Shown piece by piece: positions 2,714 to 35,920 of a DNA stretch of 64,000 bases (positions within the stretch are counted from its first letter, which is position 1; every line of letters begins with the position of its first letter). The DNA lies in the NCBI RefSeq assembly GCF_003063245.1, contig NZ_MUXE01000003.1, forward strand, positions 1 through 64,000. Reading direction: 5' to 3'. Made by a program: the position numbers and the translations under genes. The notes under the pieces are model-generated. The model saw nothing but the letters and a program-made list of their open reading frames with translations. It did not search any database and was not told the DNA's origin. This stretch comes from Arcobacter caeni (lineage in GTDB: Bacteria; Campylobacterota; Campylobacteria; Campylobacterales; Arcobacteraceae).

Positions 2714-5700
2714 ATGTTAGCAAGATTTTTTGTTTTTAGACCTATTTTTGCATGGGTTATCTCTTTAGTAATTATGATTGCAGGAATTGTAAGTCTTTAT
2801 GTACTTCCAATGGAACAATATCCAGATATTGCACCTCCACAAATAAATATTTCTGCTACATACACAGGAGCATCTGCTCAAACTGTTGAAAATAGTGTTA
2901 CTCAAATTATTGAACAACAACTTACAGGTCTTGATGGAATGATTTATTTTTCATCATCAAGTAGTTCTTCTGGAAATTCAAGGATAAAAGTAACTTTTCA
3001 ACAAGGAACTGATCCTGATATTGCACAAGTTCAAGTTCAAAATAAAGTTCAACAAATTCTTTCTCGTTTGCCTGATGATGTACAAAGACAAGGATTAAGA
3101 GTTGTTAAATCACAATCAGATTTTTTATTATTAGCATCATTATATGATGATACTGAAAAGGCAGAAAAAGCTGATATTGCCGATTATTTAGTAAGTAATC
3201 TTCAAGATAGCATCTCAAGACTTGAAGGTGTTGGAGATGTTCAAGTTTTTGGTGGACAATATGCCATGCGTATTTGGCTTGACCCAATAAAACTAGAAGC
3301 TTATAATCTAATGCCCCAAGATATAGAATCAGCAATAAGCGCTCAAAATTCTCAAGCATCAGCAGGAAAACTTGGTGGTTTACCTGTAATTAGTGACCAA
3401 CAATTAGCAGTTACTGTAACCGCTAGATCAAAATTTAAAACCGTACCTGAATTTGAAAACATTCTTATAAAACATAATAGAGATGGTTCTTTTGTTAAAT
3501 TAAAAGATGTAGCAAGGGTTGAAATAGGAGCTCAAACATATAGTAATATCACAGCATTAAGTGGTAAACCAGCTTCTGGTATTGCTGTTCAACTAGCTTC
3601 TGGTGCAAATGCCATAAGGACAGCTAATAGTATAAAAGCTCTTTTAAGTAAATATGAATCAAATCTACCTGTTGGTTATAAAATAGATTATCCAAGAGAT
3701 TCAACACTTTTTATTCAAGCTTCTATTAATGAAGTGGTTAAAACACTTTTAGAAGCTATTTTATTAGTTGTTTTAGTAATGTTTGTTTTCCTTAAAAGCT
3801 GGAGAGCAACTTTAATACCTGCCATTGCTGTTCCTGTTGTATTACTTGGAACCTTTGGTATTTTAAATGTTCTTGGTTATTCTATTAATACTCTTACTAT
3901 GTTTGGAATGGTTTTATCCATTGGTCTTTTGGTTGATGATGCTATTGTTGTTGTTGAAAATGTTGAACGAAATATGAGAGAAAAAAAACTTCCCGCAAAA
4001 GAAGCCACTATTATTTCAATGCAAGAAATCACAAGTGCTTTAGTTGGAGTGGCAACCGTTCTTTCAGTTGTTTTTTTACCAATGGCGTTTTTTAGTGGTT
4101 CAACGGGAGTTATTTATAGACAGTTTTCAGTTACGATTATCTCTTCTATGGTTTTATCTGTGATTGTGGCTTTAACTTTAACACCTGCTTTATGTGCAAC
4201 TATATTAAAACCCCATGATGAAAATGAAAAACAAAAAGGCTTTACTCATTGGTTTGGTAGAAAATTTGAATCTCTTACTTCAAAATATAAAAATGGAGTT
4301 TCTAAAGTATTACAAACACCTATTCGTTGGATGCTTACTTATGTTGCAATTATTGGATTATTAGCTTTTGTATTTATAAAACTTCCAACAAGTTTTCTTC
4401 CAAAAGAAGATCAAGGTAGTTTGATGGTTCAATATACCCTTCCAGTTGGTGCAATCACATCAAGAACTGTTGAAGTAGCAGAAAAAATAAAAGATTATTT
4501 CCTAAAAGAAGAAGCAAATAATATAGATAGTATTTTTACAATTTCTGGTTACAGTAGTAACAGTAGTGGACAAAATATTGGAACTGCTTATATTTCTTTA
4601 AAAAGTTGGGATTTAAGACCTAATCTAAGTAGCCGTTCTGATATTATTGGTCAAAGAGCTGCCCAAACATTTGCCGATCCTAAATCACCTTATTTTATTC
4701 GTGATGCAAAAGTTATTGCTATGAATCCACCCGTTGTTCAAGGCTTAGGATCAACAGATGGATTTGAATTTCAACTTCAAGCAGATGCAATTACTTCAAG
4801 AACAACTCTTGCAGAGGTAAAAGAAAAAGTATTATTAGAAGCTGGTCAAAATAGTAAAATTAATTCAATCAGAGCAGATGGTTCAGATGATACTCCACAG
4901 TTAAAAATCGAATATGATACTGCAAAAGCTTTATCTTTAGGTCTTTCTATGAGTAATATTGATTATACCCTTAGTGCTGCTTGGGCTGGTATTTATGTAA
5001 ATGATTTTATTGATCGATCAAGAGTAAAAAGAGTTTATATTCAAGGTGATGCACCATTTAGATCAAAACCTGAGGATTTATATACATGGAAAGTTAGAAA
5101 TGCAAATGGAACTATGACTTCTTTTTCAGAATTTGCAACTACAAAATGGGAATATGGTCCAGAAGAATTAAGCCGTTATAATGGTTTTGCTTCATATCAA
5201 ATTCAAGGTTCAGCAAATAATGGAATTAGTTCTGGAACTGCTATGGATGAGATGGATAAAATTGCTGATAAACTTTCAAATGGAACAATGCATTCATGGA
5301 GTGGACTTTCATATCAAGAAAGATTATCAACAGGACAATCTGGTTTACTTTATGCAGTTTCTATTCTAATTATCTTTTTATGTTTGGCTGCTTTATATGA
5401 AAGTTGGTCTGTTCCTTTTTCTATTTTAATGGTTGTACCATTAGGTATAGTAGGAGCCGTTTTAGCTGTTTATTTTAGAGGTTTAGACAATGATGTGTAT
5501 TTTCAAGTGGCACTTCTAACAACCATAGGATTGGCTGCTAAAAATGCTATTTTGATTGTTGAGTTTGTAGATACTGCATATAAAAATGGTAAACCACTTC
5601 TTGAAGCTGCAATTGAAGGAGCAACTTTGAGATTAAGACCTATTGTTATGACTTCTTTAGCATTTATTGCAGGAATTACTCCCCTTGCTTTATCTTCAGG

Positions 5701-22981: not shown

Positions 22982-25900
22982 ATGTCTTTAAAAGTAGTTA
23001 TTTCCCATAAAACTCACTATAAATATGATAAACCTATATCATTATCTCCACATATTATAAGACTAAGACCAGCACCTCATAGTAGAACTCCAATTGAAGC
23101 TTATTCGTTAAATATAAAACCTGATAATCACTTCTTAAATTGGCAGCAAGACCCATTTGGAAACTATCAAGCAAGGGTAGTATTTCCTGAAAAAACAAAA
23201 GAGTTTTTTATTGATGTTGAAATTATTGCTGATTTAATCACATTAAATCCTTTTGACTTTTTCGTTGAAGAAAGTGCAACAAACTTTCCTTTTGAATATA
23301 AAAAAGAGTTAAAAAAAGAGCTAAAACCTTATCTTAAAATCAATGAAGAAGGTAAACTTTTAAAAGAATTTGTAGAGAGTATTGATAAAAGTGAAAAACC
23401 TATTATTGATTTTTTAGTAGAAGTTAATCAAAAAATTAACCAATATGTAAACTACACTGTAAGACTAGAAACAGGTGTTCAAACTTGTAAAACTACTTTA
23501 GAAAAGAAGTTAGGTTCTTGTAGAGATTCAGCTTGGCTTTTTGTACAAGTTTTAAGACATTTAGGACTTGCAGCTAGATTTGTATCTGGATATTTGGTTC
23601 AATTAACAGCTGATGTTAAATCACTGGATGGACCAAGTGGTCCAGAAGCTGACTTTACCGATTTACACGCATGGACAGAAGTTTATATTCCAGGTGCTGG
23701 ATGGGTTGGACTTGATAGTACAAGTGGACTTTTTGCAGGAGAAGGTCACATTCCATTAGCTTGTACTCCTCATTTTGATAGCGCACATGCAATTGAAGGA
23801 TTTAGTGATAAATGTGAAACTAAATTTGAATTTGAAAATAAAGTTACAAGAATTTTTGAATCTCCAAGGGTTACAAAACCATATAAACAAGAACAATGGG
23901 ATGCAATTTATAACTTAGGATTTAAAGTTGATAAAGATTTAGTAAAAAATGATGTTCGTCTAACAATGGGTGGAGAGCCAACTTTTGTATCTATTGATGA
24001 TATGGAATCACCTCAATGGAATAGTGAAGCAGATGGTGAGCATAAAAGAGAGTTAGCTACAAAACTATCAAGAAGACTTTTAGAAACATCAACAACTGGT
24101 GGACTTTTACATCACGCTCAAGGAAAATGGTACCCAGGGGAACCACTTCAAAGATGGCAAACGACTATTTATTGGAGAAAAGATAAAAAACCAGTTTGGG
24201 AAAACCCAAAACTTCTGGCAAATAAAAATGATGTTTTTGCTTATACTTCAAAGGATGCTAAAAACTTTTTATCAACTTTAGCTTTAGTTTTAGGAGTTAG
24301 TGATGAAAATATTCTTCCAGCTTTTGAAGACCCAATTTATTATATTATGAAAGAAGCTGAACTTCCTCTTGATATTGACCCTTTAAAATATGATTTAAAA
24401 GATCCACTTGAAAGAAAAACAATAGCTGATAAATTAGCTCAAGGATTAAACAATGAAGTTGGATATGTTTTACCTTTAAATTTTGGTGTTTCAAAATGGA
24501 TAAGTTCAAAATGGGAATTTAGAAGAAATCACCTATTTCTAAGTGCTGGAAATTCACCATTGGGATTAAGACTTCCATTAGAATCATTAATAGTAAAACC
24601 TCCTGTTGAATTAGAAAAAAGTTTTGAAACAGACCTTTTTGCATTTGCTCCACAACTTGGTGATTATATTAAAGATGTTAAAAAAAGAGCTAAAAAAACT
24701 AGCAAAAAAACAACTCCAAAATATAATTCAAATGCTTTTGTAAGAACTGCAATTAGTTCTGAAATAAGAGATGACAAACTTTGTATTTTCTTACCTCCAA
24801 TTGAAGATACAGAAGTATTTTTAGATTTAATAGCTTCGATTGAACAAACAGCTGAAATGTTAAATCTAGCTGTAATAATTGAAGGTTATGAACCTCCTCA
24901 TGATTTAAGAACAGATAGAATAAAAGTAACTCCTGATCCTGGTGTTATTGAAGTAAATATTCAACCAACATCTTCATGGAAAGAACTAAGCGATAATCTT
25001 CTTGCACTTTATGAAGATGCAAGACTTTGTAGACTTGGAACTGAAAAGTTTATGCTTGATGGAAGACATACAGGAACAGGTGGTGGTAACCATGTAACAA
25101 TTGGAGCAATGAAACCTAGTGATTCTCCACTATTAAGAAATCCTCAATTACTTAGAAGTTTAATCACATTTTGGCAACACCATCCTGGTTTATCATATCT
25201 TTTTTCAGGTGCATTTATAGGTCCAACTTCTCAAGCTCCAAGAGTTGATGAGGGACGAGCTGAAAATCTTTATGAATTAGAAATTGCCTTTTCACAAATT
25301 CCAGAAAGCACAGATGTTCCTTTTTGGTTAACTGATAGATTATTTAGACATATGCTCACAGATATTACAGGGAATACTCATAGAAGTGAGTTTTGTATAG
25401 ATAAATTATATTCACCTGATTCAAGCACTGGAAGATTAGGTATTTTAGAACTTCGAGCTTTTGATATGCCTCCTCACTCTCAAATGGCACTTTTACAAAT
25501 GTTATTAGTTCGAGCTTTAGTATCTTGTTTTTGGAAAAAACCATATAAACATGATTTAGTTAGATGGGGAACAAGATTACATGATAAATTTTTACTTGAG
25601 CATTATGTAAAAGAGGATTTAAGAAGTGTTGTTCAATACTTAAATGATGAGGGTTATGAGTTTAAACTTGATTGGTTTGACCCATTTTTTGAGTTTAGAT
25701 TCCCATTATATGGAATGACAATGATAGAATCAATGCCAGTTGAAATTAGATCAGCAATTGAACCATGGAATGTTTTGGGTGAAGAATCAAGTTCACAAGG
25801 AACATCAAGATATGTTGACTCATCAGTTGAAAGGTTACAAATTAAAATTGCTAATTTTAATGAAGAAAGATACATCGTAACTTGTAATGGTGTGCAAGTT

Positions 25901-26347
25901 CCACTTTCTAAAACCGATATTGAGGGTGAATATGTAAGTGGAGTTAGATATAAAGCTTGGCAACCTTGGTCAGCTCTACATCCAACCATTAAAGTAGATA
26001 CACCTTTAACTTTCGATATAATAGATAAATGGAATACTAGATCTATTGGTGGATTCAACTATTTTGTTGCACATCCAGGGGGAAGAAGTTATGATACATT
26101 CCCTGTAAATTCTTATGAAGCCGAATCAAGAAGGATAAATAGATATTGGGATTTTAATCACTCACAAGGTGAGCTTGAAGCTTATGAACCTTCTCTTTCA
26201 GCAGAAGCAAACTCTATTTTTGCAGTGGAAGCAACTAGAACTTTAACGAATACAAAAGGAAGTAAAAAACTTCTTTTTAAAGAAATGCCAAAAAACAAAG
26301 AGTACCCACATACATTAGATTTAAGACAAAGGTGGATAAAAAAATAG
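22982..26347 (+). CDS. Transglutaminase-like protease domain fused to DUF2126
   Basis: This 1121-residue protein has an N-terminal bacterial transglutaminase beta-region (residues 1-85) and a transglutaminase core with the complete catalytic triad C180 (LGSCRDSAW), H229 (TDLHAWTEVY) and D245 (VGLDSTSG). A DUF2126 region fills the rest, starting at about residue 324 (DVRLTMGGEPTFVSIDD). The core could cleave or form amide bonds. DUF2126 has no known activity and is nearly always encoded beside circularly permuted ATP-grasp and alpha-E proteins, as here. There is no signal peptide, so it acts in the cytoplasm. It is the first gene of a three-gene operon whose next ATG follows its stop with no gap. 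Confidence 0.92.
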   Translation: MSLKVVISHKTHYKYDKPISLSPHIIRLRPAPHSRTPIEAYSLNIKPDNHFLNWQQDPFGNYQARVVFPEKTKEFFIDVEIIADLITLNPFDFFVEESATNFPFEYKKELKKELKPYLKINEEGKLLKEFVESIDKSEKPIIDFLVEVNQKINQYVNYTVRLETGVQTCKTTLEKKLGSCRDSAWLFVQVLRHLGLAARFVSGYLVQLTADVKSLDGPSGPEADFTDLHAWTEVYIPGAGWVGLDSTSGLFAGEGHIPLACTPHFDSAHAIEGFSDKCETKFEFENKVTRIFESPRVTKPYKQEQWDAIYNLGFKVDKDLVKNDVRLTMGGEPTFVSIDDMESPQWNSEADGEHKRELATKLSRRLLETSTTGGLLHHAQGKWYPGEPLQRWQTTIYWRKDKKPVWENPKLLANKNDVFAYTSKDAKNFLSTLALVLGVSDENILPAFEDPIYYIMKEAELPLDIDPLKYDLKDPLERKTIADKLAQGLNNEVGYVLPLNFGVSKWISSKWEFRRNHLFLSAGNSPLGLRLPLESLIVKPPVELEKSFETDLFAFAPQLGDYIKDVKKRAKKTSKKTTPKYNSNAFVRTAISSEIRDDKLCIFLPPIEDTEVFLDLIASIEQTAEMLNLAVIIEGYEPPHDLRTDRIKVTPDPGVIEVNIQPTSSWKELSDNLLALYEDARLCRLGTEKFMLDGRHTGTGGGNHVTIGAMKPSDSPLLRNPQLLRSLITFWQHHPGLSYLFSGAFIGPTSQAPRVDEGRAENLYELEIAFSQIPESTDVPFWLTDRLFRHMLTDITGNTHRSEFCIDKLYSPDSSTGRLGILELRAFDMPPHSQMALLQMLLVRALVSCFWKKPYKHDLVRWGTRLHDKFLLEHYVKEDLRSVVQYLNDEGYEFKLDWFDPFFEFRFPLYGMTMIESMPVEIRSAIEPWNVLGEESSSQGTSRYVDSSVERLQIKIANFNEERYIVTCNGVQVPLSKTDIEGEYVSGVRYKAWQPWSALHPTIKVDTPLTFDIIDKWNTRSIGGFNYFVAHPGGRSYDTFPVNSYEAESRRINRYWDFNHSQGELEAYEPSLSAEANSIFAVEATRTLTNTKGSKKLLFKEMPKNKEYPHTLDLRQRWIKK

Positions 26348-28840
26348 ATGTCAATTTTTGATAGTTGTAAGTTAGAATCATCATTTGATGAGATGTTTGA
26401 TAACTCTTGTACAATAAGACCCCATTGGGTTGATATTATAGATGGTTTGGAAAAAGCTGGTATCAAACAACTTGAACTTAAACAGACAGAAATTGATTGG
26501 CGGCTTGAAGATAATGGAGTTACCTATAACATTTACAATGATCCAGAGGGAACTAATCGAAGATGGAACTTAGATCCAATTCCTTTGGTATTAACTTCGC
26601 AAGAGTGGGAAGAAATTTCAAAAGGTTTAAAACAAAGAGCTAAACTTTTAAATCTAATTTTTAAAGATTTATATACAGAGCAAAGATTAATTAAAGAGGG
26701 AATTGTTCCTGCTGAAATCATTTTTGCTCATAAAAGTTTTATACCTGAAGTTTTCAACTTTGAAAACAAAGATTATTACTCAATGAGATTTTATGCAACA
26801 GACATAAGTAGAGGTCCTGATGGAAAGTTTTGGGTTATAAATGACAGAACCCAATCACCATCAGGACTTGGTTATGCAATAGAAAATCGACTTACAATGA
26901 ACTCAATATCAAATGATTTATATCCAAATATTGAGATTTTAAAAATGGCAAAGTTTATTGAGGGATTTAAAGATATGTTAAAATCTCTCTCCTCATCAAA
27001 TCATGATAATCCACTAATTGCACTTTTAACGCCTGGACCATTAAATGAAACATATTTTGAACATTCATATATTAGTTCTTTTTTAGATTTAACTCTTGTT
27101 CAAGGGGAAGATTTACTTGTAAAAAACAACCAATTATGGCTAAAAAATTTAAATGGTTTACGAAAAGTTGATACTTTAATAAGAAGAGTTGACTCACAAT
27201 ATTGCGACCCTCTTGAATTAAAAAACAATTCTCAACTAGGAGTTGCTGGTCTTGTAAATGTAGTTAGAAAAGATAATCTTTCAATGATAAATCCAATTGG
27301 AGTTGGTATTTTAGAAAATATTGGACTAAATCCATTTATGAAAAATATTGCAAAATTTTTATTAGATGAAGAGTTGATTTTACCTCAAATAGCAACTTGG
27401 TGGTGTGGACAAAAAAAAGAACTTGATTTTGTTCTTAGAAATATCAAAAATTTAATTATCAAAAAAATAGATAGAACAGATAATATTGAAGTTCATTTTG
27501 CAAATAAATTAAATGATGAAGAGTTAAAAAATTTAATTGAAAAAATACAAAATAATCCTAACTACTATGTGGGTCAAGAAATAATAGATTTCTCAACAAC
27601 TCCTTCTTTTACAAAAGGTAGAGTGGAACCAAGAAATACAGTTATTAGAGCTTTTTCTTATTTACATGAAGAAAAATATCATGTAATGCCTGGAGGTTTG
27701 ATTAGAGTTTCACCATCAAAGGATTCACTTGTAGTATCAAACCAAAAAGGTGGAACAAGTAAAGATTTATGGATTCTTGGAAAAGATGATGATTTTTCTG
27801 GAAATAGTATTTTTAAAAATAGGTCTTTTATTGATTCAAGATTAGAAAATATTTCAACAAAAAGAGCAGAAAATCTTTTTTGGTTAGGAAGATATTTAAC
27901 AAGAGCAATAACAACTGCTCGAATGATTAGATTTAATCTTAAAAGTATGCTCAATCTAAATAGATATGATGATCATACAAATTCAACACAAACAAATAAA
28001 ATCCTAAATAATGCTTTAACTCATTTAACAATGAGTTATCCAGGCTTTTTAGATGAAAAACCTACTTTGGTACCAATGAAAGAGATAATCTCATTAATTA
28101 GAGATAAAAATAGAGCTGGAACTCTTAGTTTTAGTCTTACTCTGCTTTCAGATTTAAATGCAAGTGTTAAAAATCTTCTTACCATGGAAGCATGGAGAAT
28201 TTATGAGAAGATGCAAAGAGAATGGAATAACTATAATAAAAAAGAGATTTTCTCAAATAAAGATCATATAAACGAACTTGACAAACTTTTGATTTATTTA
28301 ATGGCTTACAAAGAGTTAATTGATGAAAGTATCTTTAAAGAACAAGGTTTGATTTTATTTGATATTGGTTCAAAAATAGAAGTTTCACAACTATTAATTT
28401 CAAAATTAAGATCACTTCTGACCCAAAAACTTGATAAATTAATCGAATATGATGTCTTAGATTCTATGCTAAATTCTTATGAAAGTTATAACTCATATAG
28501 AGCTTATTATAAATCATCTTTGGCATTGGAAAATGTCTTGGATTTTTTAATCTTTAACACAAAATATCCTAAATCATTAATTTATATTATAAATCAATTA
28601 CTTGCTGATTTAAAAGAACTTCCAAAAAATATTGATAATTCACATCTTAGCAGTTTTGAAGAACCTATATTTAAACTGTTTTCTATGATAACTTTAACAA
28701 ATACACAAAAACTTTTGGAAATTCCAGAAGATGAATATATTTATAAAGAACTAGATAAATTTTTATCTATACTTTCTGAATTATTAACAAAAACATCTGA
28801 TGAATTAACAAAAACATATTTTTCACACTACAATGAGTAA
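26348..28840 (+). CDS. Circularly permuted ATP-grasp domain fused to an alpha-E domain
   Basis: An 830-residue fusion. Residues 1 to about 490 form a circularly permuted ATP-grasp ligase-like domain: RAKLLNLIFKDLYTEQRLI, WVINDRTQSPSGLGYAIENR, and SNQKGGTSKDLWILGK are family landmarks. From about residue 500 an alpha-E domain begins with the typical KRAENLFWLGRYLTRA. ATP-grasp enzymes join a carboxylate to an amine through an acylphosphate, so peptide or amide synthesis is predicted. The glycine-rich GG-Y-G loop of the stand-alone paralogue at 34394-35758 is not evident here (KKIDRTDNIEVHF occupies that place). The ATG follows the preceding stop directly. Confidence 0.92.
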   Translation: MSIFDSCKLESSFDEMFDNSCTIRPHWVDIIDGLEKAGIKQLELKQTEIDWRLEDNGVTYNIYNDPEGTNRRWNLDPIPLVLTSQEWEEISKGLKQRAKLLNLIFKDLYTEQRLIKEGIVPAEIIFAHKSFIPEVFNFENKDYYSMRFYATDISRGPDGKFWVINDRTQSPSGLGYAIENRLTMNSISNDLYPNIEILKMAKFIEGFKDMLKSLSSSNHDNPLIALLTPGPLNETYFEHSYISSFLDLTLVQGEDLLVKNNQLWLKNLNGLRKVDTLIRRVDSQYCDPLELKNNSQLGVAGLVNVVRKDNLSMINPIGVGILENIGLNPFMKNIAKFLLDEELILPQIATWWCGQKKELDFVLRNIKNLIIKKIDRTDNIEVHFANKLNDEELKNLIEKIQNNPNYYVGQEIIDFSTTPSFTKGRVEPRNTVIRAFSYLHEEKYHVMPGGLIRVSPSKDSLVVSNQKGGTSKDLWILGKDDDFSGNSIFKNRSFIDSRLENISTKRAENLFWLGRYLTRAITTARMIRFNLKSMLNLNRYDDHTNSTQTNKILNNALTHLTMSYPGFLDEKPTLVPMKEIISLIRDKNRAGTLSFSLTLLSDLNASVKNLLTMEAWRIYEKMQREWNNYNKKEIFSNKDHINELDKLLIYLMAYKELIDESIFKEQGLILFDIGSKIEVSQLLISKLRSLLTQKLDKLIEYDVLDSMLNSYESYNSYRAYYKSSLALENVLDFLIFNTKYPKSLIYIINQLLADLKELPKNIDNSHLSSFEEPIFKLFSMITLTNTQKLLEIPEDEYIYKELDKFLSILSELLTKTSDELTKTYFSHYNE

Positions 28841-28842
28841 AC

Positions 28843-29736
28843 ATGATTTATGAAATATACCACGAAACCAAATTTGATTATGTTGCGCTTGTAACTTTTA
28901 GTCATAATCTAGCAAGATTAAAACCTAAAAATTCTAATACTCAAAAACTATTAGAATATTCTTTAAAAATAGACCCTATTCCTTATGAAACTAATGAATT
29001 TATTGATTATTTTGACAATACAAATAATTTTATGCTAATTAGAGAAGCCCATAAAAATCTTAAAGTTATAGCAACTTCAAGGGTTGAAAGAATAAAAGAA
29101 GAAATCAACAAAGAATTGGATTTATTAAAAGAAGTAAAAATAACTGTAAAAGAAGTAAAACAAAGACTTAGTTCTTATCATCCAGATGATGTTTTAGCAA
29201 AATATTTTTTATTTGAAACTGATTTAATTCCAATGCCATCAATAGAAATAAAAAAATATATTTTAGAATCTTTTAGTGAAAATAGAAATATTGTTGAAGC
29301 AAGTAATGAATTTATGGCGAGAATCTTTAATGATTTCAAATTTGTATCAGGCTTTAGTGATATTACAACTCCAATTGAAGTTATTTTTAAAGAAAAAAAG
29401 GGAGTTTGTCAAGATTTTGCCCAATTTGCAATATCAGCACTTAGAAGTATTGGAATTCCGGCTCGATATGTAAGTGGTTATATTCAAACCATTCCAGCCC
29501 AAGGAAAAGAAAAACTTTTTGGTGCAGATGCTTCACATGCATGGTTTTCTGTATATATTCCAGATTTTGGATGGGCTGATTTTGACCCTACAAATAATAA
29601 AATTCCAAATGAAGAGTATATTATTTTAGGATATGGAAGAGATTATTTAGATATCTCACCATTAAAAGGTGTTGTTCAAAGTAGTGGAAATAGTTCTTTA
29701 GGCGTAAAAGTTAATGTTAAAATCTTAGCAGATTAG
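28843..29736 (+). CDS. Transglutaminase-like cysteine protease or amidase
   Basis: A 297-residue stand-alone transglutaminase-fold protein: N-terminal beta domain (MIYEIYHETKFDY onwards), then a core with C189 (GVCQDFAQFA), H232 (DASHAWFSVYIP) and D248 (WADFDPTNN). It is a compact paralogue of the N-terminal part of the protein at 22982-26347. No signal peptide is visible. It starts 2 bases after the ATP-grasp/alpha-E stop and is the last gene of that operon, converging on the chemotaxis receptor gene 6 bases away. It could trim or recycle the peptide-like product made by the ATP-grasp proteins (inference). Confidence 0.92.
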   Translation: MIYEIYHETKFDYVALVTFSHNLARLKPKNSNTQKLLEYSLKIDPIPYETNEFIDYFDNTNNFMLIREAHKNLKVIATSRVERIKEEINKELDLLKEVKITVKEVKQRLSSYHPDDVLAKYFLFETDLIPMPSIEIKKYILESFSENRNIVEASNEFMARIFNDFKFVSGFSDITTPIEVIFKEKKGVCQDFAQFAISALRSIGIPARYVSGYIQTIPAQGKEKLFGADASHAWFSVYIPDFGWADFDPTNNKIPNEEYIILGYGRDYLDISPLKGVVQSSGNSSLGVKVNVKILAD

Positions 29737-29742
29737 AAGAGT

Positions 29743-31749
29743 TTAAAAACTCTCCCACTCTGTATCCTCTTTTGTATTAGGCTTAGAAACAACATGATTT
29801 GATTCATGTTTTACAGTTTTTGGCGTTATTTTATTTGCATTTGGTGCTACTATTTTATTATGACTTTCAGCATTATGTATAGCTTTTGCAGCTGATTTTA
29901 CATTTTTTGCTTTTACTTCATTTTTACCTTTGAATTCTTTTTCATCAGCATTTGCTACAACTAATTTTGCTATTTGATCTGTTAAAACTGCAACATCATG
30001 AGTTTGAGAAGCAACTGCTGCATTTTGTTGTGTTTGTTGATCTAATTGATTTACTGCATCATTTATTTGCTCAATTCCCAATAACTGCTCTTTTGAAGCA
30101 TTTTGAATATCTTGAATCAAATTTATTGTATGCGTAATATTCCCATTTAACTGTTTATATCCATCAATCATATTTCCAGCTATTTTTTTACCATCATTTG
30201 CTTTTTTTGTTGCATTTTCTACGATACTTTTTATCTCTTTAGCAGCTTCAGCACTTCTTGAAGCAAGATTTCTTACTTCTGCTGCAACTACTGCAAATCC
30301 TTTTCCAGCTTCTCCTGCAGTTGCTGCTTCTACGGCTGCATTTAATGAAAGAATATTTGTTTGGAATGCTATTTGGTCAATTACACTTATCGCTTCATTT
30401 ATTGCATTTACTTGTGTATTAATTTCATCCATAGAAATTGTTGTTTGGTTTGCAAGATTTTCACCTTGAGATGCAGAAGCTGTTACTTCATTTGAAAGTA
30501 ATGCCATTTTTGAAATATTTTCTGTATTATTTCTAATGTTAGAAGTTATCTCTTCAATTGCTGCTGCTGTTTCTTCTAAAGAAGCTGCTGCTTCATTTGA
30601 ACTTTGGTTTAATTTATCAACATTTACAAGTAAAATATTTGAACTTTCATCTAAAGTTAACCCATTTGTTTTATTTTCAACTAACATTTGAGTAATTGAG
30701 TTTTGTAAAGTATTAATTCCAACTACTAATTTTTCAAATAATCCACCTCTTTCATCATTTGGGTGCATATTTAAAGTCTCTAAATAATTAAGTTTTGCAT
30801 ATTGTTCTAAAATATCATCAACTTCTGCAAATCTATCTCTTGTACTTTTTATCATTTGATTTACATTATTTTTAAACTCTTCCAATGAAGTATTTGAAGT
30901 TGATTTTTCAATAAATTGTGAATACCAACCATTATTTACTCTTGTCATTACAACTTTTGCATCTTCAATTAATTCTACATCTTGATTTAGAGTATTTTCT
31001 ATTTGTTTGATATTTTCATTTACAAAAGTTGCCATTTCACCAAACTCATCTTTTGCACTATCTTCTAATAATGAAATTTTTGTAGTTTTTTTATTTAAAT
31101 AATCGAAGAAAGAAATTAACCCATTTTTAAAATCATTTAATGATTTTGTAACAATACTTGAAATAAATAAAGAAAATATTATAAAAATCAAAATTGAAAC
31201 TATTACTAAAATCATAAGAATATTATTTAGTAAATTATGAGCTTCTTCTTTTAATTGTAAAGCATTTTTATTTATTTCTATGATCTTAGCTTCTAAAACA
31301 AGTCCTGATTCTGACATTGTTTTAATAGTATTTTTTATTTGATCTGTTTCATCTTTAATACCATTTTTTTGATTTTCAATTAACATTGAATCAACAACTA
31401 TAAAGTTATTTATATACTCTTTTGATGAAGCTAAAATTTCATTACATAAGTCTATATTTCTTTGAAAAATCAATATCTCTTTTAATTGTGATACTTGAGT
31501 ATCTAAATCTTTAAAAGTATCTACTACTTTTTGTTTATTTACTTCTGTTGGAGCTCTTAAAAATTGGTATACAGAAATTCTTCCTTTTAATAATTGTTGA
31601 ATAAATTCTTCTGTTTCAATAGCTACTTGGCTTCTTGCTTTTTCTACATCACTATAGTGAATATACACAAATCCTGATACCGCTACTATTACAATAAACA
31701 TAAATGGAAACAATAATAGTTTCATTTTTGTATTGATGTTTTTTATCAT
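29743..31749 (-). CDS. Methyl-accepting chemotaxis protein with C-terminal EWESF pentapeptide
   Basis: A 668-residue receptor. A first membrane helix (about residues 10-28) and a second (about 176-200) flank a 150-residue, mostly helical periplasmic sensor. A HAMP-like linker and a long cytoplasmic coiled coil follow, with the conserved hairpin tip [20 protein letters not shown] near residue 465. The protein ends in a flexible tail and EWESF, closely resembling the NWETF pentapeptide that tethers CheR/CheB to enterobacterial receptors. AGGAAATC precedes the ATG at 31749, and TATAAT (minus) is at 31778-31783. It sits between the two peptide-ligase gene blocks; a functional link is not shown. 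Confidence 0.93.
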
Positions 31750-31862
31750 TTTGATTTCCTAATAAATTAATACCACTATTATATTATTTTTTTAATATAA
31801 AACTATTTAATTATTTGTTTTACTAATATTTAATTATAGCAAGTAATCTAATTAGCACACTT

Positions 31863-32795
31863 TTATCCAATCTTTGCAATTCTAAAAGCAACGGCATGTT
31901 CGTAAATCAAAGAATTACTATAAAAACAAGTAATCATTCCATTACATGGTGCCAAAAATTGGTGTATTATTTCACCTTCTAAAGAGTGAACTATTTCACC
32001 AATAACTTGATCTTTTGATACATAATTTCCAGGAAGTTCTTTTGATATAAAAATACCACTTCGTGGAGATTTTACGACAGCAATAGAACTTCTATCAATT
32101 ACAGTTGATTCATATCCATTAAAAATATGATAATCAATGATTTTTGTTTTATCCATAAATCTTATCATCGCTTGATTTATTTGACTTGCAATTTTTTTAT
32201 CAACTTGATTATCCCCTGGACATATAATTGAAAAAGCCTTTGTTCCCCAAAGCTGCCAATTATATTGCAAAGTAACAGTATCTATTGATTTCATTGTTCG
32301 ATGATGAATCATTTTGAAACCAAATTTTTTTGCACTGGGTAAATCTTCATATCCACTTTTAAAAAGTTTTATATATGGTAAACAAGTAGCTGGATCGGGT
32401 CGTCTTTCTAAAATAATTCCAAAATCATAACCATTAATTGCATCAAATATTTTTTTGGCAATTCTTTGTGTTGTTTCACCTTGTTCATAACCTGGAAACA
32501 TCATATTAAGGTCTGTATTATCCAAAGGCCAAAATCTTTTTCCAATGTTTAAAGCATAATGATTAATTGATGGAATTATTAAAACATCACCTTTTATTTT
32601 CTCTTTCTCAATCTTATTTTTGAAAAAATCAACCATTGCAGAAGAGCAATATAATGGTAAAATTGATTCTCCTTCCATTGCCCCAACGATGGCAACTTTA
32701 GGAGCTTTTGGATTGGTTCCTTTAAATAAATATCCCTCAACAACTAAAGGCGCGCGACTTAGTGATTCAATTCTTAATATTTCAATTTTTTCCAC
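31863..32795 (-). CDS. Aspartoacylase/succinylglutamate desuccinylase-like protein with lost active-site residues
   Basis: A paralogue of the gene just upstream (32782-33735), but the catalytic positions have changed. The zinc motif G-x-H-G-D-E is replaced by GAMEGES (His to Met). DLNRAFPG becomes DLNMMFPG, removing the substrate-binding Arg. DIHSS becomes ILERR, losing the second metal His. VVEMG becomes SIICPG, losing the catalytic Glu. The fold and the C-terminal beta domain (residues about 220-310) are kept. I choose GTG at 32795 because GGAG lies 6 bases upstream; a TTG at 32807 is an alternative. The start overlaps the upstream gene by 14 bases. It is probably a pseudoenzyme partner or binding protein. 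Confidence 0.85.
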   Translation of the reverse strand: MEKIEILRIESLSRAPLVVEGYLFKGTNPKAPKVAIVGAMEGESILPLYCSSAMVDFFKNKIEKEKIKGDVLIIPSINHYALNIGKRFWPLDNTDLNMMFPGYEQGETTQRIAKKIFDAINGYDFGIILERRPDPATCLPYIKLFKSGYEDLPSAKKFGFKMIHHRTMKSIDTVTLQYNWQLWGTKAFSIICPGDNQVDKKIASQINQAMIRFMDKTKIIDYHIFNGYESTVIDRSSIAVVKSPRSGIFISKELPGNYVSKDQVIGEIVHSLEGEIIHQFLAPCNGMITCFYSNSLIYEHAVAFRIAKIG

Positions 32796-33735
32796 TATTA
32801 TCTCCAAAAATTCTAGCTATCAATGAACCCTCGTAAACAACAGGATATTCTCTTAAAGTAAATAATATTCCATCATTTGGAGCAATTAGCGTAGCAAAAA
32901 TTGTTCCAGTTAAGGGGTCCACAATATCTCCAATTTTGTCATTCTTTTTAATAATTGCACAATGATCAAGAGCAGGAATAAATAAACCACTTTTAGGAGC
33001 ATTTAAATAATAAACTTCTCCAACTTCTGAATTAAAAGCTTCTCTTGTTACAAAATCTTCTTTACATTCAAGTATTCCTTCTTTTTTCATAAGATTTAAA
33101 ATACCTAATAATAATTGATGTCCATATGCTTTTGTAAGTCTCATTCCAACACCCATTTCAACAACCAAAGTTTTTGTACCCATTGAGTTCATTGTATGTG
33201 AAAAAGTTGATTCTAAAACGGTAACCGCATCATGTATCCAAATAAAATCACAATTTAACTCTTTTGCAAGTGGTAAAGTAGATTTTGAGAACTCTTTATT
33301 TATTCTAATTTGGGGGATTTCTCGTAAAAAAATATTACTTGAATGAATATCAATAGCAATATCACTTCCTTTTACATCATTTGCTAAAGCAAAAACAACT
33401 TGTCCTGGTAAAAATTCATTTGAACTTCCAGGAAAAGCTCTATTTAAATCAATATCATATAAAGGAAATCCTCTAGTAATAGAATCAACTCCCAAAGAGT
33501 TAACAGATGGATAAATATCAACTATTCCTTTTAATTTATCACTATTATTTTTAAGCCAAGTAGCCAGAAGATATATTACTAATTGACCTTCTAGCTCATC
33601 TCCATGGATTCCACTTACAATTGAAATTCTTTTTATTTTATTATTAGTTTTTTCAAGTGGTTCAAATCTTGTTCTTTTTATAGATAATTTCTCACCTACT
33701 GGTAACTCGGATGTGAAAATCTCTGTTGTGTTCAT
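32782..33735 (-). CDS. Aspartoacylase/succinylglutamate desuccinylase-family zinc deacylase
   Basis: A 317-residue M14-type metallohydrolase that should remove an acyl or amino-acyl group from a small amide. Catalytic features are complete: GIHGDELEG (zinc His and Glu near residues 44-47), DLNRAFPG (substrate Arg), AIDIHSS (second zinc His) and LVVEMGVG (general-base Glu). The C-terminal part is the usual barrel-like lid. Its ATG overlaps the stop of the alpha-E gene by one base (TAATG), so the operon is translationally coupled. In the context of an ATP-grasp ligase it could deacylate or hydrolyse the ligase product or a precursor (inference). Confidence 0.9.
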   Translation of the reverse strand: MNTTEIFTSELPVGEKLSIKRTRFEPLEKTNNKIKRISIVSGIHGDELEGQLVIYLLATWLKNNSDKLKGIVDIYPSVNSLGVDSITRGFPLYDIDLNRAFPGSSNEFLPGQVVFALANDVKGSDIAIDIHSSNIFLREIPQIRINKEFSKSTLPLAKELNCDFIWIHDAVTVLESTFSHTMNSMGTKTLVVEMGVGMRLTKAYGHQLLLGILNLMKKEGILECKEDFVTREAFNSEVGEVYYLNAPKSGLFIPALDHCAIIKKNDKIGDIVDPLTGTIFATLIAPNDGILFTLREYPVVYEGSLIARIFGDNSGKN

Positions 33736-34391
33736 TAATCCCCAACTATTATTTTATTAATTTTGGCATTTATAGAATTCATTATTACCTCATGAGAATC
33801 ATTTTTATCATGGGGACTAAATCTTGAATTTGGTGCTAAGATTGTTACAATTTTATCTATTTCTTCCATTACAACTAATGAAAACTCTTTATCTCTTCCT
33901 AGTCTTAAGTGAAAATCTACTTTTTCAACAAGTTTCCCAAGTCTAATAAAATAATCACTTGCTTGTCTATGTTGTTTTCTAGTTAATTCACCCCAAATTT
34001 CACTAATTAAAGATAAAACCTTATCAATAAATCTACAATCAATTTCTAAACCTGACTGTTTTAATAAATTAGTCAATTCAACAACAGAACCAAAAGCTTC
34101 AGTATCCATATTTGTTCTACTAATAATTGCATTTTCTTTAGCAAAATTAATCAAATTATGTAAATTAGCATGATGGTTTCCAAAAACTGCTTCATTTAAA
34201 AAATTCTTTGCATCTAAATACTCTAAATCAATTCCCAATTTTTTGTAAATTTCTTTACCACTATCTTTATTTGTATCAATAATCTTATCAAAAGCATCAA
34301 CTACTTCAAGTAATATTGCTTCAATTCTTTCTAAATATCTTCCAAACCAATATAAATTAGATGCTACATTTGCAGTTAATAATTGCTCCAT
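33735..34391 (-). CDS. Stand-alone alpha-E domain protein
   Basis: A 218-residue all-helical protein that begins LLTANVASNLYWFGRYLERI, the hallmark of the alpha-E (COG2307-type) family, and has the conserved D-Y-x-x-R-L-G-K-L-x-E-K-x-D-x-x-x-R-L-G motif near residues 158-180. Its biochemical role is unknown; it is nearly always encoded with circularly permuted ATP-grasp proteins, and the plus-strand block has it fused to one. I choose the ATG at 34391, because GGAGG lies just upstream, rather than a start further up inside the ATP-grasp gene. It follows that gene's stop by 2 bases. Confidence 0.9.
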   Translation of the reverse strand: MEQLLTANVASNLYWFGRYLERIEAILLEVVDAFDKIIDTNKDSGKEIYKKLGIDLEYLDAKNFLNEAVFGNHHANLHNLINFAKENAIISRTNMDTEAFGSVVELTNLLKQSGLEIDCRFIDKVLSLISEIWGELTRKQHRQASDYFIRLGKLVEKVDFHLRLGRDKEFSLVVMEEIDKIVTILAPNSRFSPHDKNDSHEVIMNSINAKINKIIVGD

Positions 34392-34393
34392 TT

Positions 34394-35758
34394 TTATGCC
34401 TCCATAACCCAAGTATCTTTAAATCCACCACCTTGAGATGAATTCACTAAATAATTTCCAGCTTCCATAGCATATCTTGTCAGTCCACATTTCCAAACTT
34501 TTGGTTCATCACTCATTACAACATAAGCTCTAAAATCAGCTTTTCTAGGAACTATTTCATCATTTAAATAACACTCTTCATCATAAAATTCTATTAATTC
34601 TTGAGCAATAAATCTTCTAGGATTTGCTTCAATAATTGTTTTTAAATCTGCTAACTGAATTTTTGTCATGGCATGTCCAAACATTACTCCATAACCTCCA
34701 GCTTCAGCAACATCTTTAATTACCAATTTTTCCATATTGTCAAAAATGTATTTTTTATCCTCTTTGAAATAAGGCAAATATGTAGGTGCATTATCTAATA
34801 AAGGTTCTTCTCCTAAATAATACTTAATCATTTTTGGAACAAAATAATAAATACCTTTATCATCAGCAACTCCATTTCCAGGGGCATTCATAATCGCTAC
34901 ATTTCCAGCTAAATATACTTCCATAATTCCTGGAACTCCAATTAAACTCTCAGAATTAAAAAATTTCGGATCTAAAAATTCATCATCTAATCTTCTATAA
35001 ACAGCTCCCACACGAACTAATCTTCCATCATAATTTTTGAAAAATAAAATTTTATTTTGAACGATTAGTTCATCATTTCTTACAAGTTGAGCGCCTATTT
35101 TTTTTGCTAAATATGCATGTTCATAATATGCTGAGTTAAATCTTCCAGGAGTTAAAACAACATTTATTCCACCACAATTTACATAATCCATAGATTCTAA
35201 CAACATTGATGGATACTCTTTTATGGGCTTAATTTTTAGTTTTTCAAAAAAAGTTGGATAAATTTTTCTATAAATATCTCGAATAGATAAAGGATAACTA
35301 GCTCCACTTGGAACTCTCAAATTATCTTCTAAAATAACCCATTTATCAGAAACAGTATCTTTTACTAAATCAATTCCATTTATATGTGTACGAATTTTTT
35401 TAGAAGGAGAAAATCCATGAAGTTCTTTTAAATAACCTTTTGCTTGATAAATAAACTCTTCAGGAATTATATTGTCTTTAACAATATTTTTTGTAGTATA
35501 TAAATCTTCTAAGAATAGATTTAAAGCCCTTATTCTTTGACTTAATCCTTTATCGATTATATCAAACTCTTTGGTTTCTATAATTCGAGGAATTACATCA
35601 AAAGGTAAAGATCTCTCGATAAAATTTCCATCTTTGTAAAGATTGAAATTAACAGCAAACTTATCCATATACTTCTGGAACTCTTTTATTTTTTGTCTAT
35701 CTTGGTTTGAAAATGTTTCCCAAAAAACTTCAGATACACTATTTTTTTCATTACTCAA
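34394..35758 (-). CDS. Stand-alone circularly permuted ATP-grasp ligase
   Basis: A 454-residue circularly permuted ATP-grasp protein. Family landmarks are RIRALNLFLEDLYTTKNIV, LEDNLRVPSGASYPL, the glycine-rich loop AEAGGYGVMFGHAMT (about residues 355-370), ANPRRFIAQELIEF, and the C-terminal NSSQGGGFKDTWVM. These retain the ATP- and metal-binding features expected of an active ligase, unlike the more divergent loop of the fused paralogue. The start is TTG at 35758, preceded by a perfect AGGAGG 6 bases upstream, which indicates strong translation. It is the first gene of a four-gene minus-strand operon continuing with alpha-E and two deacylase-like genes. Confidence 0.92.
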   Translation of the reverse strand: MSNEKNSVSEVFWETFSNQDRQKIKEFQKYMDKFAVNFNLYKDGNFIERSLPFDVIPRIIETKEFDIIDKGLSQRIRALNLFLEDLYTTKNIVKDNIIPEEFIYQAKGYLKELHGFSPSKKIRTHINGIDLVKDTVSDKWVILEDNLRVPSGASYPLSIRDIYRKIYPTFFEKLKIKPIKEYPSMLLESMDYVNCGGINVVLTPGRFNSAYYEHAYLAKKIGAQLVRNDELIVQNKILFFKNYDGRLVRVGAVYRRLDDEFLDPKFFNSESLIGVPGIMEVYLAGNVAIMNAPGNGVADDKGIYYFVPKMIKYYLGEEPLLDNAPTYLPYFKEDKKYIFDNMEKLVIKDVAEAGGYGVMFGHAMTKIQLADLKTIIEANPRRFIAQELIEFYDEECYLNDEIVPRKADFRAYVVMSDEPKVWKCGLTRYAMEAGNYLVNSSQGGGFKDTWVMEA

Positions 35759-35882
35759 ATTACACCTCCTGAACTATATAAATTCTAGTCTCATTTGTCT
35801 AAAAATAAACTAAATTATTTTATTACCCAACAATTTGATTGTATAATTACTATACATAAGTAAATGATTATTTTTTGTTATC

Positions 35883-35920
35883 AAAAAAAAAGAGGAAGGA
35901 TAAAATATCCTTCCTCTTTT
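35883..35920 (-). terminator. Rho-independent terminator of bipA
   Basis: A perfect 12-bp stem (AGAGGAAGGATA at 35891-35902 with TATCCTTCCTCT at 35906-35917) and a 3-base loop lie 25 bases downstream of the bipA stop. On the minus strand a run of eight or more U residues follows (A-run 35883-35890). A short T-run on the other side could make it weakly bidirectional. Confidence 0.9.

Follow-up and report, generated by a model that had tools for sequence, protein, structure and literature searches.

Facing ATP-grasp/alpha-E gene blocks in Arcobacter caeni, a possible layered amide-forming system

The seven-gene locus

The window studied here, 64,000 nucleotides of contig NZ_MUXE01000003.1 from Arcobacter caeni (genome of 2.4 Mb in 59 contigs, 99.98% complete), carries a locus of seven genes, with limits at positions 22982 and 35758, in which two blocks on opposite strands face each other and each encodes a circularly permuted ATP-grasp domain and an alpha-E domain. 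An earlier note on this DNA, made from the sequence, had described a predicted peptide- or amide-forming system with a fused and a split version of one module, and had taken this to suggest two linked or opposing reactions; our open reading frames (ORFs) agreed exactly with those of the note, and a Pfam profile search placed all seven products in the families that it had named.

The plus-strand block begins with TG-DUF2126 (22982..26347, 1121 amino acids), an N-terminal transglutaminase-like cysteine enzyme fused to a carboxylate-amine ligase-type DUF2126 domain (1268 bits, 826 of 826 positions covered), and continues with GraspE (26348..28840, 830 amino acids), a circularly permuted ATP-grasp fused to alpha-E, and TG (28843..29736, 297 amino acids), a free transglutaminase-like cysteine enzyme with its GVCQDF, SHAW and FDPTN motifs intact; Bact_transglu_N and Transglut_core were matched in both transglutaminases of this block. 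The minus-strand block, read from its upstream end, encodes the split circularly permuted ATP-grasp (34394..35758, 454 amino acids, with a TTG start preceded by AGGAGG), a short form of alpha-E (33735..34412, 225 amino acids) that covers positions 3–172 of the 294 in the Pfam model and has the canonical YWFGRYLER motif, the AstE/AspA zinc amidohydrolase AspA (32782..33735, 317 amino acids; AstE_AspA_cat, 62 bits) and the AstE/AspA-fold pseudo-enzyme AspB (31863..32807, 314 amino acids), matched at 38 bits and in its first half only. The scores for the two CP_ATPgrasp_2 domains were 451 and 440 bits and those for the two Alpha-E domains 175 and 60; both ATP-grasps matched PF14403/PF04174 only, with no RimK-type ATP-grasp domain found by Pfam. 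The tight packing reported earlier was borne out, with gaps of 0 and 2 bases in the plus block and overlaps of 19, 1 and 26 bases in the minus block (ATP-grasp/alpha-E, alpha-E/AspA and AspA/AspB, respectively). The reported absence of the peptidase Anbu also holds, because the genome has just one proteasome-family gene, a 182-amino-acid ORF, of HslV size, on another contig.

Sets of ATP-grasp, alpha-E and transglutaminase genes are widespread, occurring in proteobacteria, actinobacteria and cyanobacteria among others. Iyer et al. reportedly predicted in 2009 that they form a peptide-synthesis system, and the same work may already have remarked on a degenerate fused ATP-grasp; to our knowledge, no product has been identified since. 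The gene families found here support the tie to these predicted systems that had been drawn for the locus.

The split and fused ATP-grasp domains

The view that the fused and split proteins are the same module was not supported. The split ATP-grasp of the window keeps D130, E144, N146, D299-D300-K301, K348 and the glycine loop, and every ligase residue checked was kept in 38 of 38 split sequences. In contrast, among 31 fused sequences from four phyla, E144, N146 (mostly Arg), D300 and K301 were each found in none, and the glycine loop at 354–357 was lost in nearly all; the Mg/ATP motifs are thus missing from 31/31 fused domains and from 0/38 split ones. By motif, these residues correspond to E330, N332 and K533 of Escherichia coli Gss, which we take to be the E-x-N metal ligands and the lysine/glycine-loop position. 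In a tree built from 51 sequences of several phyla, in which the program flags long branches, the two kinds of domain fell into separate clades (support 100/100), and on this basis they are separate, old subfamilies. The split ATP-grasp is therefore predicted to be an active amide ligase and, because the Mg/ATP motifs are gone in all 31 sequences, the fused one is unlikely to act as an ATP-dependent ligase of the standard kind.

The nearest solved relative of the split ATP-grasp is the uncharacterised structure 3n6x, matched at 2e-109 and labelled as a putative member of the glutathionylspermidine synthetase family. An ATP-grasp from a Yersinia Anbu operon liberates inorganic phosphate from ATP (PMC6376114), and the ATP-grasps of Klebsiella Anbu operons aligned with the split class. 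As for alpha-E, the ‘ER’ motif is intact in the split protein of the window; the Glu of this motif is replaced in all Campylobacterota fusions and retained in most Proteobacterial ones. In one genome, a third Alpha-E match (a 282-amino-acid frame at G191:C1:707689-710445) adjoins the split ATP-grasp.

AspA and AspB

The two aspartoacylase-like proteins belong to the family given earlier but differ in their active sites. The zinc site of AspA (H44, E47, R99, H131 and E193) was complete in 28 of 28 sequences, but in AspB H44, R99, H131 and E193 were each present in 0/27 and E47 in 1/27, such that the zinc ligands, the DLNR arginine and the catalytic Glu are missing from the homologues compared. 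AspB nevertheless keeps invariant positions of its own, such as FPG...GETTQRIA, and always has Glu at the position of H131. It was found in 19 of the 21 Campylobacterota genomes with a split ATP-grasp but was absent from the other 228 (Fisher test, 1.5e-26), and no match to it was found among 72,556 plasmid records. AspB is better read as a conserved pseudo-enzyme, with AspA as the predicted active hydrolase of the pair, and the link of such a conserved but inactive protein to a single ligase suggests that the hydrolase has two subunits, with AspB perhaps serving structure, substrate holding or control.

Relatives of AspA adjoin rimK in Vibrio, Salinivibrio, Phaeobacter and Acaryochloris, and two Campylobacterota genomes have the gene order Zn_protease-RimK-AstE/AspA-M42 peptidase (L091:1759-5170 and L092:1466-4923), providing a precedent for an aspartoacylase-type hydrolase that acts on the product of an ATP-grasp ligase. 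The latter set is another ATP-grasp system of the Campylobacterota that includes a relative of AspA. A third AstE/AspA match in the A. caeni genome was set aside as an unrelated cell-shape carboxypeptidase (M99).

Co-occurrence of the blocks and fate of the transglutaminase

Conservation was followed in 249 Campylobacterota genomes, with plasmid records as the coverage beyond that phylum. Alpha-E and CP_ATPgrasp_2 were found in an identical set of 21 genomes, and DUF2126 in 17, which were exactly those with the fused ATP-grasp. The earlier note had named, as a finding that would count against it, that the blocks never occur together in related genomes; both were present in all 17 genomes with the plus block (Fisher test, 7e-23), the minus block stood alone in four and the plus block alone in none. 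The blocks converge on one contig in 13 of the 17, diverge in one, lie in tandem in one and fall on different draft contigs in two; the converging order spans several families, which excludes chance. Gene presence thus shows a one-way dependence of the plus block on the minus block, a statement limited to the Campylobacterota because sampling elsewhere consisted of plasmid records. The distribution is patchy, with six further sampled species from the genus of A. caeni lacking the system. Protein distances were correlated between the split and fused ATP-grasps (r=0.73), the split ATP-grasp and AspA (r=0.98) and AspA and AspB (r=0.98), values that are supportive only, since ordinary shared descent also yields them. 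One contig labelled Desulfosporosinus (L041) carries a split ATP-grasp 82% identical to that of the window, which probably reflects a wrong label or a mixed assembly.

A further transglutaminase gene, TG2, belongs to the minus block of some relatives and is placed there between alpha-E and AspA. The four genomes that lack the plus block all have a TG2 with its catalytic Cys (GVCQDF), whereas in the 17 genomes with the plus block TG2 is either absent from the minus block (11) or has the Cys changed to Ser or Arg (six; GISQDF, GLSQDF or GLRNDF), an association with a Fisher value of 1.7e-4. The simplest reading of this pattern is that a plus-block transglutaminase does the job of TG2, from which it follows that the two blocks would be one system with the minus block as its core. 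We propose that the plus-block TG took over the role of the minus-block transglutaminase; natural gene loss indicates that the transglutaminase of one block can probably stand in for that of the other. The pattern argues for one layered system and against the two linked or opposing ligase reactions suggested earlier. The relatives with the minus block alone point to a minimal set of five genes, encoding ATP-grasp, alpha-E, TG2, AspA and AspB.

The other plus-block transglutaminase, that of TG-DUF2126, has the triad C180/H229/D245, and this triad and the DUF2126 residues are nearly invariant across phyla; the protein is predicted to be active in both parts. DUF2126 has been placed in the GCS2/PafA ligase superfamily (PMC2588565); hhalign gave no significant match between it and the E. 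coli GCS2 enzyme YbdK.

Comparison with related systems

In the Anbu-type system of Klebsiella, the split ATP-grasp, alpha-E and transglutaminase are encoded in one operon, as in this kind of locus, and plasmid records from that genus contain the split set together with Anbu. The A. caeni locus differs in having AspA and the inactive AspB in place of Anbu, in its shortened alpha-E and in the absence of a transglutaminase from the minus block, a role apparently assumed by the facing block. The plus block has the same three genes, in the same order, as operons encoding a transglutaminase-DUF2126 protein, a fused ATP-grasp/alpha-E and a transglutaminase in Granulicella, Enterobacter, Caballeronia and Burkholderia (the Mycobacterium tuberculosis Rv2566 type), but in the Campylobacterota it faces a split block carrying AspA/AspB; a literature search for phenotypes of the M. 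tuberculosis homologues returned nothing useful. In plasmid records of Enterobacter roggenkampii, Caballeronia and Burkholderia cenocepacia, genes for the split ATP-grasp, alpha-E, TG-DUF2126, fused ATP-grasp/alpha-E and TG are adjacent. The presence of a fused and a split ATP-grasp in one locus, which the earlier note had used as its pointer to two reactions, is not unique to this locus, a further point against that reading. The ‘hydrolase’ slot varies, being filled by Anbu in Klebsiella and AspA/AspB in the Campylobacterota; Caballeronia, Hymenobacter and Kozakia have a gene for a putative zinc metallopeptidase close by.

In RimB-RimK-aspartoacylase operons an ATP-grasp peptide ligase likewise adjoins an AstE/AspA-type zinc hydrolase, but their ligase, RimK, lacks the circular permutation, and they encode a RimB-type protease and no alpha-E, transglutaminase or inactive AspB. 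E. coli Gss combines an ATP-grasp amide ligase with a cysteine amidase and has the E-x-N motif in common with the split ATP-grasp; the cysteine enzyme here is, however, of the transglutaminase type rather than CHAP, and hhalign found no significant sequence match.

Interpretation

Our preferred reading, held with middling confidence, is that both blocks belong to a single, layered system for amide formation, consisting of an ATP-grasp ligase core with a zinc eraser and an add-on plus block. In the core, the split ATP-grasp, helped by alpha-E, would use ATP to convert a carboxylate to its acyl-phosphate and would then couple this to an amine; AspA and the non-catalytic AspB would remove the group again, occupying the place held by the Anbu peptidase in other bacteria. 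A transglutaminase-like cysteine enzyme would perform further amide hydrolysis or transfer, a step of the core that the free TG of the plus block would take over. TG-DUF2126 would contribute a cysteine enzyme and, as a second ligase, a carboxylate-amine ligase of the GCS2 type, and the fused ATP-grasp/alpha-E would be a scaffold or a substrate-binding and positioning partner rather than a second ligase; we infer that all act on a single shared substrate. More tentatively, the pairs of active and inactive proteins (the split ATP-grasp with the pseudo-ATP-grasp/alpha-E fusion, and the zinc hydrolase with its obligate pseudo-hydrolase) may make up a switchable writer and eraser of a peptide or protein tag, with the aspartoacylase pair replacing Anbu. 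The locus points to the split ATP-grasp as the likely ligase, the widely annotated fused one being predicted to be non-standard, and to AspA with AspB as a candidate eraser. A long-standing puzzle over the role of a widespread gene set thereby becomes directly testable, and the five-gene minimal set can be expressed and assayed.

Several points weigh against this layered reading. The evidence on the locus comes entirely from sequence comparison, and would fit a breakdown pathway or the modification of a protein as well as a free amide product. The mapping of ATP/Mg residues onto E. coli Gss is by motif only, the split ATP-grasp having no significant hhalign match to that enzyme, and the AlphaFold models of the fused ATP-grasp/alpha-E and of TG-DUF2126 were too poor for use (predicted local distance difference test scores of 37 and 36). 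All six TG2 proteins with a changed Cys come from one genus, so the transglutaminase pattern reflects few independent events, and in two genomes (G122 and G195) the split block lacks AspA/AspB. The fused ATP-grasp also keeps D130 (or Glu), R256, D258, D263 and, in most sequences, K348, with D299 replaced by Glu in 31 of 31; the domain is therefore under constraint and an altered activity is possible.

That last point bears on the alternative that the fused ATP-grasp is active with a re-arranged metal site or another chemistry, such as that of a kinase or a non-Mg ligase, making the plus block a second catalytic module. A constrained site would be expected in that case, but every phylum sampled shows the joint loss of the E and N of the EDN metal motif, the DDK motif and the glycine loop, and we consider the alternative doubtful. 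Two separate ligase pathways, with linked or opposing reactions on different substrates, would fit the presence of ATP-grasp, alpha-E and hydrolase genes in both blocks and the difference in chemistry between the free TG and AspA; set against the missing ATP/Mg motifs of the fused domain, the lack of any genome with the plus block alone and the decay of TG2 where the plus block is present, this is unlikely. Least probable of all, and very unlikely, is the view of AspA/AspB as metabolic hitch-hikers with no connection to the ligase: they are missing beside the split block in the two genomes mentioned, but the genes overlap, AspB is confined to split-block genomes and the distances of AspA follow those of the split ATP-grasp.

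The system might instead be mainly catabolic, labelling and dismantling nitrogen-rich peptides or amides for nitrogen recovery. Homologues in Burkholderia are under NtrC/sigma-54 control, with B. cenocepacia I35_5080-5083 down 6- to 9-fold when ntrC is mutated (PMC5491218), and the domains are correlated with urea genes across marine metagenomes (PMC3597751), which together suggest a link to nitrogen; a role in nitrogen limitation is suggested by analogy with a Burkholderia homologue only. At this locus, however, sigma-54 sites did not exceed chance (25 sites where 19.5 were expected, and none of them lying upstream of either block), nitrogen-assimilation genes were not recognised beside the blocks, and ATP-driven ligases would be odd for simple breakdown, so that we rate a mainly catabolic role as conceivable but not probable. 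Modification of a protein in the manner of RimK/RimB, the split ATP-grasp adding amino acids and AspA trimming them, draws on the occurrence of AspA relatives in rimB-rimK-aspartoacylase operons, Campylobacterota included, but the ligase is of the circularly permuted class rather than RimK and no substrate protein is encoded nearby; we regard it with the same doubt as an active fused domain.

Neighbouring genes and signals

Upstream of the minus block, a terminator-like hairpin with a T-run (35883..35920, minus strand), following bipA, and a -10-like TATAGT near 35851, both recognised by eye, suggest that this block has its own promoter. An Rfam scan of 18000–38500 gave no matches.

Between the blocks lies a gene absent from the earlier account, for a methyl-accepting chemotaxis protein (29743..31749, minus strand, 668 amino acids; Pfam). 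It is found at that place only in close Aliarcobacter relatives, being absent there in other relatives, and is probably a lineage-specific insertion outside the system. Its end lies 6 bases from that of TG. Co-transcription with the minus block is possible in Aliarcobacter, since the receptor gene comes after AspB and shares its strand. Flanking and intervening genes (the chemotaxis receptor, a permease, MFS and varied metabolic genes) were considered as parts of the system and rejected, since only the 453-amino-acid permease recurs, and that in one genus. There, a gene for a hydrophobic permease-like protein of 451–453 amino acids lies just upstream of the split ATP-grasp (L048:17177-18538; also L049, L050, L051, L052, L055 and L064) and is a candidate transporter of substrate or product; the L048 copy had no Pfam or NCBIfam match. 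Just upstream of TG-DUF2126 in L048 is a gene for a BTLCP-type cysteine proteinase (Peptidase_C93; 3339-3974), and L049 and L055 have genes for proteins of 211 amino acids at the corresponding place.

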